DNA of 64,000 bases from Segatella cerevisiae (lineage in GTDB: Bacteria; Bacteroidota; Bacteroidia; Bacteroidales; Bacteroidaceae), in NCBI RefSeq assembly GCF_024054555.1, contig NZ_JAMXLY010000001.1:149656-213655 (forward strand), in the 5' to 3' direction. Under the pieces are notes generated by a model. It was not told the origin of the DNA. It worked only from the letters and a program-made list of their open reading frames with translations, and ran no database searches. Both the position numbers and the translations under genes were made by a program. Numbering within the stretch: the first letter of the stretch is position 1; each line of letters starts with the position of its first letter. Below are positions 2,195 to 3,238 of the stretch, piece after piece.

Positions 2195-2290
2195 GGGCAA
2201 GTCTCTTACGGCCAGCTCCCCTCGAATCCCCCAGGTTGGGAACGAAGCAAGGGTACTGGGTTGTAGCGGCGCGCTAAGAATCGCTTGCCC
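2195..2290 (+). ncRNA. ffs: Signal recognition particle RNA, small bacterial (4.5S) type
   Basis: This RNA binds Ffh and targets nascent membrane proteins to the translocon. The 5' end GGGCAAG (2195-2201) pairs with CTTGCCC at the 3' end (2284-2290), closing a hairpin of about 96 nt. The apex carries the conserved helix 8: CAGG on the 5' side, a GGAA tetraloop and AGCA on the 3' side (about 2231-2256), which form the Ffh-binding symmetric loop. It ends only four bases before a tRNA-like structure and has no terminator of its own, so both are probably made as one transcript. Confidence 0.9.
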
Positions 2291-2294
2291 ACCC

Positions 2295-2365
2295 GCCTTC
2301 TGAAGCTCATAGGAAGAGCACAAGATTTATCTTGGAGGTTTGTCGGTCCGATTCCGACAGAAGGC
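2295..2365 (+). ncRNA. tRNA-like structure with a shortened anticodon loop, fused in transcript to SRP RNA
   Basis: The 71 bases fold as a cloverleaf: acceptor GCCTTCT (2295-2301) with AGAAGGC (2359-2365); D arm GCTC/GAGC with loop ATAGGAA that keeps the G18-G19 pair; and T arm GTCGG/CCGAC with loop TCCGATT. The anticodon arm is abnormal. CAAGA pairs with TCTTG around only four bases (TTTA), three short of the seven needed for an anticodon. The T loop also has C where position 55 is normally U. The 3' tail reads ACA, not CCA. It cannot be an ordinary decoding tRNA. It could be a processing signal, a non-decoding tRNA-like RNA, or a decayed tRNA gene. Confidence 0.7.
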
Positions 2366-2377
2366 ACAATAGAAGAA

Positions 2378-2416
2378 GGCAGTCAGACTATGATAAATAG
2401 GAAGATTGCCTTTTTT
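2378..2416 (+). terminator. Intrinsic terminator of the SRP RNA / tRNA-like transcript
   Basis: GGCAGTC (2378-2384) pairs with GATTGCC (2404-2410) and is followed directly by six T residues. It is the first terminator after the SRP RNA promoter. Confidence 0.75.
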
Positions 2417-2674: not shown

Positions 2675-3238
2675 ATGATAACATCTCAAAATATCACACA
2701 AGTAAGAGCTTTTGCACGGCAAGATGGAGTTTTTCTCTCTGTGTTGTGGATCGCAGGTTTTCTCTGCACCATGTTGACGACTCAGATGCCTATATTGGCC
2801 CCTATCGCAGATCTGGCAGTCCTGGCTACTCCATTCTTTGTCGCTTTCAGATTGAAAAAATTCCGGGACACCGCCCTTGACGGCGTCATATCCTTCAGGA
2901 GAGGATTTCTCTATACGGCAGAAACATTCTTCCATGCAGCTCTCATCTTGGGTGTTGTACAATACCTCTATTTCAGATTCGGAGACATCAGCGGGTTCCT
3001 GCAACAGTGGAATGAATCGTATTCCGTCGTTGCAAAAGTCTACAACCTCAGCGGTACGCAGGCACAACAACTCAAGGATGCCGTCGGCATGATGAGTCCG
3101 CTGGCATGGGCATCGATGTTCTTTATCCTTGAACTGTTCGGTGCCGTGATTGTCAGTCCTATCGTGGCAGCAATCATGGCTCGGCGAATCCCCCGCAAGG
3201 ACATCCAGAATCAGAAAGACAATTCAGAGAATAATTGA
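2675..3238 (+). CDS. DUF4199 family membrane protein
   Basis: This 187-residue protein matches my knowledge of DUF4199, a Bacteroidota family of small integral membrane proteins with no established biochemical role. Hydrophobic segments lie at about residues 20-38, 42-60, 84-103 and 145-168, consistent with four membrane helices. The C-terminus is short, basic, then acidic and asparagine-rich. It is the first gene of a likely operon; the glycosyltransferase start follows 19 bases after its stop. The same pairing of DUF4199 with a GT2 enzyme is common in Bacteroides, which suggests that it assists transfer of a lipid-linked sugar, but this is inference. Confidence 0.85.
   Translation: MITSQNITQVRAFARQDGVFLSVLWIAGFLCTMLTTQMPILAPIADLAVLATPFFVAFRLKKFRDTALDGVISFRRGFLYTAETFFHAALILGVVQYLYFRFGDISGFLQQWNESYSVVAKVYNLSGTQAQQLKDAVGMMSPLAWASMFFILELFGAVIVSPIVAAIMARRIPRKDIQNQKDNSENN

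Follow-up and report, generated by a model that had tools for sequence, protein, structure and literature searches.

A conserved anticodon-less tRNA-like element behind the SRP RNA gene of Segatella cerevisiae, a candidate processing signal of probable tRNA-Thr(UGU) origin

Why should a cloverleaf that resembles a tRNA, yet offers no anticodon, lie directly behind the gene of the signal recognition particle (SRP) RNA? This arrangement occurs in the window, i.e. the 64,000-nucleotide stretch of Segatella cerevisiae DNA analysed in this study, on the forward strand of which the parts of the SRP RNA and cloverleaf unit are located. An earlier note on this DNA had proposed two roles for the cloverleaf: it could be the site at which RNase P forms the SRP RNA 3' end, or an RNA that does not decode but serves some separate function. 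The SRP RNA gene (ffs; 2188-2294) was identified as a member of the small SRP family of Bacteroidales (Rfam RF04183; 109.8 bits, E 3.2e-22, gathering score 55.2). RF04183 was the sole Rfam family shown at the gathering score in the whole window, and the SRP RNA gave a single match in the genome. The closing helix of this RNA ends at 2290 and a spacer of four bases, ACCC (2291-2294), precedes the cloverleaf, which confirms the tandem of the two RNAs described in the note. According to Pfam, the 5' neighbour of ffs is a MutS2-type gene (mutS2; MutS domain V and Smr domain) that ends at 1946, and on the 3' side lie a DUF4199 gene (2675-3238) and then a gene of a family 2 glycosyltransferase.

The cloverleaf (2295-2365; 71 nt, plus the discriminator A2366) is the minimum-free-energy fold of its own sequence (2295-2369; -26.4 kcal/mol, z -2.7, with 2 of 200 shuffled sequences folding as well) and also the minimum-free-energy structure within 2188-2420; when the SRP RNA and the cloverleaf are folded together, each retains its own fold. 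It is composed of an acceptor stem of 7 bp (5' strand 2295-2301, paired with 2359-2365), a D arm of 4 bp (2305-2319; loop AUAGGAA, with G2312-G2313 at the place of G18-G19), a hairpin of 5 bp at the anticodon position (2321-2334; loop UUUA, 2326-2329, without an anticodon) and a T arm of 5 bp (2342-2358; loop UCCGAUU, 2347-2353, with C2348-C2349 at the place of 55-56). The 3' strand of the acceptor stem extends with the discriminator over 2359-2366, and CCA is not encoded. The good acceptor, D and T arms, the anticodon loop of only four bases and the C at position 55 that had been read from the sequence were thus all recovered in the predicted fold.

Measured against a standard tRNA, the element has the acceptor, D and T arms of the usual length (7, 4 and 5 bp), G18-G19 and C56. 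It lacks the seven-base anticodon loop with its anticodon, U8 and U55. ARAGORN recognized neither tRNA nor tmRNA genes in the window, and a tmRNA was not found by Rfam at the gathering score either. The element scored 28.1 bits with the tRNA model RF00005, just under the cut-off of 29, and 46 matches in the same genome lie above this cut-off (46.1-75.2 bits).

Both RNAs appear to be bracketed by one promoter and one terminator, as the note had stated, although a simple promoter/terminator scan returned 0 of either, and the signals were identified by motif search and folding instead. The predicted single promoter of the unit is the box TATCTTTG (2166-2173; pattern match), which we take to be of the Bacteroidetes -7 type; the pattern TAYCTTTG occurs 14 times in the window (4.9 expected). 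A predicted intrinsic terminator, consisting of a 12-bp hairpin (2373-2415; fold z -6.1) and a T run, extends over 2373-2416; the simple scan probably missed it owing to a stretch between the stem strands longer than the scan permits. A second promoter would not fit between the SRP RNA and the cloverleaf. The two are predicted to form a single transcript unit. A short leader hairpin (2179-2190; fold of 2175-2194, -3.8 kcal/mol, z -2.0) lies between the promoter box and the SRP RNA.

A second example of the element was found by scanning genome contigs with the DUF4199 protein, using exact peptide patterns that reach only close relatives; one locus was returned (L157). It is located in a metagenome-assembled genome deposited as Prevotella sp. 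UW_MP_PREV4_1 and has the same gene order as the window (mutS2, ffs, element, DUF4199 gene). Its SRP RNA exceeds the gathering score of RF04183 (104.4 bits). Its element was likewise rejected by ARAGORN, scored 23.2 bits with RF00005 and folds into a cloverleaf (z -4.2, 0 of 200 shuffles as good). The hairpin at the anticodon position has a longer stem there, 7 bp against 5 bp in the window; its loop comprises four bases in either species (GUUU in L157). In both, position 8 is G or A, one extra base precedes the D stem, position 55 is C, and ACAATA lies 3' of the acceptor stem. Since a second species retains it, the element is more than a chance structure, as judged from sequence. The promoter box TATCTTTG is also present upstream of ffs in L157, and a different hairpin (z -5.9) occupies the place of the terminator. 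The leader hairpin is kept in both species (L157 2512-2527; 5 bp, z -5.7), with differing stem length and loop. The L157 locus also matched a plastid 5' UTR family of Rfam, on the opposite strand and with 25.8 bits against a cut-off of 65.7, and this match was rejected.

The conservation of the element approaches that of the SRP RNA itself. Between the window and L157, 65 of 70 ungapped positions of the element are identical (93%; 65/75 by all columns), and the corresponding values for the SRP RNA are 101 of 106 (95%) and 101/108. By contrast, the two species are far apart at four-fold degenerate sites, only 65 of 194 of which are identical in mutS2 (34%) and 22 of 59 in the DUF4199 gene; the encoded proteins share 500 of 640 residues (MutS2) and 140 of 178 residues (DUF4199 protein). 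The upstream and downstream spacers are identical in 110/248 and 221/336 columns, respectively; counted by ungapped positions these values rise to 84% and 83%, and the column figures are fairer because the aligner is free to open gaps. The D loop, the T loop and the acceptor stem show no difference between the two species, and the length of the hairpin at the anticodon position varies. This length change and the five substitutions sit where the fold permits: at the unpaired position 8, in the variable loop, in the anticodon-position stem (A-U to G-U) and on both sides of a T-stem pair (U-A to C-G). In both species 21 of 21 cloverleaf pairs hold, and the D loop keeps its GG and the T loop its CC.

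We analysed what follows ffs in relatives, in a survey of 131 entries (130 genomes of the window's genus, including its own, plus L157), 129 of which could be parsed (G007 and G412 were left unparsed). The surveyed loci are not a random sample, since they comprise the best-scoring matches and hand-chosen places. A complete standard tRNA-Thr(UGU) follows ffs in 101 of the 129 parsed entries, and in a further 17 the tRNA-Thr runs up to a contig end. Two entries (G157, G214) carry a variant tRNA accepted by ARAGORN, one record (G167) ends in the first bases of the tRNA, and two (the window and L157) carry the anticodon-less element. In the remaining six (G203, G415, G398, G218, G035, G228) the tRNA is lost or broken and ARAGORN found none; such losses may be over-represented, because 20 survey loci were chosen partly for low DNA match. 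Only the last tRNA bases remain in G203, followed by a hairpin with a T run, and in G415 a hairpin-like stretch adjoins ffs, with a piece of the 3' part of the tRNA further downstream; these hairpins were read by eye. There is a T run behind ffs in G218, the 5' part of the tRNA is deleted in G398, and G035 and G228 have tRNA deletions of 6 and 7 bases. Among the 101 complete cases the spacer between the SRP helix and the tRNA measures 4 bases in 90, 5 in 10 and 6 in 1. A MAFFT alignment that took in the SRP sequence of two relatives was excluded from the counts.

The same linkage extends beyond the genus. In other genera of the family, tRNA-Thr lies directly behind ffs in six of seven records (L281-L286); the seventh stops 15 bases behind the SRP helix, with no tRNA start within those bases. 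In other families of the order it was detected in 4 of 22 genomes with a match (L002, L003, L004, L013), which represent four families. Of the 18 others, 16 show a run of at least five T within the first 15 bases after the closing helix of the SRP RNA; with a T run directly behind it, this helix would let the SRP RNA itself serve as the terminator hairpin. The T-run cases outside the genus include L022, L029, L032, L038, L040 and L042.

The tRNA-Thr(UGU) genes behind ffs in this family and in other Bacteroidales share the place and the spacing of the element and are homologous to it (55 matches in the alignment); they differ from it in having a seven-base anticodon loop, U8 and U55, and in being recognized by ARAGORN. 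Both elements also match tRNA-Thr(UGU) best when compared with the 40 distinct tRNAs encoded in the window's genome. Compared with this tRNA, the window element carries 8 stem substitutions, none of which breaks any of the 21 pairs; the single U-U mismatch present in the tRNA has become a pair. Only 7 of 200,000 random draws of 8 substitutions in the same stems left no broken pair, under a null model that presumes descent from tRNA-Thr(UGU) through point changes. Three pairs were changed on both sides (C-G to U-A, U-A to C-G and G-C to A-U), two of them in the acceptor stem.

Each of the two genomes has another complete tRNA-Thr(UGU) gene (G000:C29:36939-37012 in the window's genome and G422:C10:83631-83704 in that of L157), and the copy behind ffs was thus spare. 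Both remaining genes have the standard sequence and lie in a Thr-Tyr-Gly-Thr cluster, which in the window's genome is followed by a reading frame with an EF-Tu-like start, by which we presume it to encode EF-Tu. Because relatives carry tRNA-Thr(UGU) behind ffs and the genome keeps another copy, the element likely began as a spare tRNA and, judging by these comparisons, was likely derived in place from the redundant gene.

A blastn search with the element in 398 genomes of the genus gave no further example: 27 of them had a match at E 0.1 or better, and all except the window's own were partial, scored at most 37.4 bits and were judged to be due to chance. A repeat draw of 348 genomes (those listed being the same as before) yielded 29 other loci, all tRNA-Thr, 27 complete and 2 running to a contig end. 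In a draw centred on G011, made up of mostly the same genomes, 233 of 388 had a match, the best reaching 50 bits at 74% identity; 19 of the 20 loci fetched from it are in genomes with the tRNA-Thr intact, or intact to the contig end, and the last, in G412, is unparsed. A pattern search allowing up to 3 mismatches in 394 genomes of the family found 1 match, in the window's own genome. These blastn and pattern draws overlap, and diverged copies would escape them. No second copy was found in the window's genome, nor was the element found in the phages and plasmids searched, or any part of it in viral contigs.

Of the two roles proposed in the note, the RNase P site is the better supported, and we favour it with moderate confidence: the conserved element may be a processing signal, and a cut by RNase P at its 5' edge would give the SRP RNA its 3' end. 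Where relatives carry tRNA-Thr behind ffs, 5' maturation of this tRNA by RNase P would free the SRP RNA simultaneously. In the lineage of the window the decoding job was lost, with the anticodon loop gone, and sequence and predicted fold retain the stack of acceptor and T arms and the elbow of D and T loops, features against which both RNase P and RNase Z are known to gauge their substrates and which they would presumably recognize here. RNase P would then cut after 2294 (2294/2295) and RNase Z behind A2366, and the freed cloverleaf would be trimmed away or persist as a by-product. What is inferred here is the descent of the element, its joint transcription with the SRP RNA, both cuts and the advantage they would bring.

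Several features are consistent with this processing signal. The 12 bp stacked from acceptor and T arms are intact in the element, as are the two G of the D loop and the two C of the T loop, and an RNase Z gene scored above the cut-off in both genomes. The T runs behind the SRP helix in most of the genomes of other families that lack the tRNA also fit, as the SRP RNA would there end by its own terminator. RNase P has been described as gauging the distance between the elbow, with its stacked G19 and C56, and the 5' terminus of the acceptor stem (PMC11693755, PMC4919913). A C at position 55 could make each of the two elbow contacts a G-C pair, for which pseudouridine would not be required. Against it stand the loss of U8 and the replacement of U55 by C, both of which RNase P must tolerate, as well as the fact that there are two examples only. 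Furthermore, if the assemblies are right, the six entries of the genus without an intact tRNA indicate that ffs 3' ends can form without a cloverleaf; since ffs would then not need one, the benefit in the window's lineage would be local or of another kind.

The identical D and T loops also fit selection for a role in trans, which is the basis of the second idea of the note. The cloverleaf may be cut out and stay as a stable non-decoding small RNA that, for example, binds a tRNA-handling protein or competes with tRNAs. We regard this as unlikely, though it is the alternative that survives best: neither the D and T loops nor the acceptor stem differ between the two species, while the hairpin at the anticodon position varies in length, and the fold is better than that of most shuffled sequences in the window and of all of them in L157. 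However, the conserved parts are equally those needed by RNase P and RNase Z, so the conservation of the D and T loops does not separate a stable RNA from a processing signal, and the element is present in a single copy in the genome. Bacterial Y RNAs of the YrlA type are non-decoding, contain a tRNA-like module and work with Ro60. The element resembles them in being a bacterial RNA with a tRNA-like part that does not decode, but a comparable role is unlikely, as a TROVE/Ro60 protein (PF05731) was found in neither of the two genomes (1 of 14 control genomes was positive).

It is improbable that the element stays attached, uncut, as a 3' domain of the SRP RNA. The gap of just four bases, the independent folds of the two RNAs when folded together and a conservation near the SRP RNA's own would all suit such a domain, but the tRNA at the same place in relatives has to be released before it can function, and the element retains what RNase P reads. 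The suggestion that this tRNA gene was rebuilt as a permanent 3' domain, a tRNA-like head that touches the translating ribosome and does the job of the Alu domain in an Alu-less SRP, is one to which we attach very little probability.

According to the note, an ordinary tRNA with a seven-base loop in relatives would reduce the window's copy to a decayed tRNA gene. The survey did place tRNA-Thr(UGU) there, and plainly broken copies exist in G035, G228 and G398, but the conclusion does not hold, as L157 keeps the anticodon-less cloverleaf even though four-fold degenerate sites are near saturation between the two species. True decay, as seen in the broken copies, takes the form of deletions through the stems, whereas all 21 pairs are kept here, and the ungapped identity to the sister element is 93%. 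On these sequence comparisons a decaying pseudogene is very improbable and nearly refuted.

Alanine tRNAs are marked by a G3-U70 pair, and serine and leucine tRNAs by a long variable arm; the element has none of these, so that charging by an anticodon-independent synthetase, with the amino acid donated outside translation, is extremely improbable, despite the acceptor stem and discriminator A being the same in both species.

Elements of the proposed kind, i.e. tRNA-like signals for processing, are known. In the available text of PMC11658184, the t-elements of plant mitochondria are tRNA-derived, can define the ends of neighbouring RNAs, and are tailed but not charged. They adjoin mitochondrial mRNAs and rRNAs, whereas the window element is bacterial, lies behind an SRP RNA and is known here from its sequence and predicted fold. 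A likeness is also offered by the human mascRNA and menRNA (of MALAT1 and MEN-beta, respectively), in which acceptor and T arms are kept together with a small D arm with two conserved G, and where the anticodon position carries a longer stem with a compact loop, a length shared only by L157 (7 bp) and not by the window (5 bp) (PMC11693755). mascRNA is cut by RNase P and RNase Z, and in this pair the RNA upstream receives its 3' end through RNase P (PMC11693755), as proposed here for the SRP RNA. Both are parts of human long non-coding RNAs, and homology to the window element is not claimed.

The linkage of an SRP RNA gene to a tRNA gene has an archaeal parallel in the 7S RNA and tRNA-Ser of Methanothermus fervidus, known from a title cited in PMC3035299. 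In the open-licence literature, as judged by title and start of abstract among the matches listed, we found no report of a bacterial ffs-tRNA tandem or of a tRNA-like element behind a bacterial SRP RNA, which is no proof of absence. The available text on Rfam 15 names the SRP family and cites for it the Bacteroides thetaiotaomicron transcriptome paper, in the main text of which the terms 'SRP', '4.5S', 'ffs' and 'signal recognition' do not appear. The kind of element is thus known, and its bacterial, SRP-linked setting and origin in place appear new to us.

If the processing signal is real, this locus would represent a natural split of the two jobs of one tRNA gene, with the decoding loop lost and the features used by processing enzymes retained, and would give bacteria an equivalent of the plant t-elements and of human mascRNA. 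It would also point to tRNA punctuation as the means by which a housekeeping RNA acquires its 3' end across a large bacterial family. Moreover, tRNA-Thr, the two elements and the broken copies would form a series of substrates with which the requirements of RNase P could be addressed.

Some minor observations are worth mentioning. In another genus of the family (L282, G434) two tRNA-Thr(UGU) genes are arranged in tandem behind ffs. The 17 contigs of the genus that end inside or at the ffs-linked tRNA-Thr cut ffs off from its neighbour in the assembly, perhaps because of an identical copy elsewhere in the genome. In G007 (L051) the SRP RNA is without its 3' strand and runs directly into the D arm of tRNA-Thr, which is perhaps a misassembly or a deletion. 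Finally, the genome of the window contains another weak match to RF00005 (L101, G000:C98:4878-4933; 21.5 bits over part of the model), a tRNA-like remnant that is rejected by ARAGORN and is possibly the copy of an attachment site.
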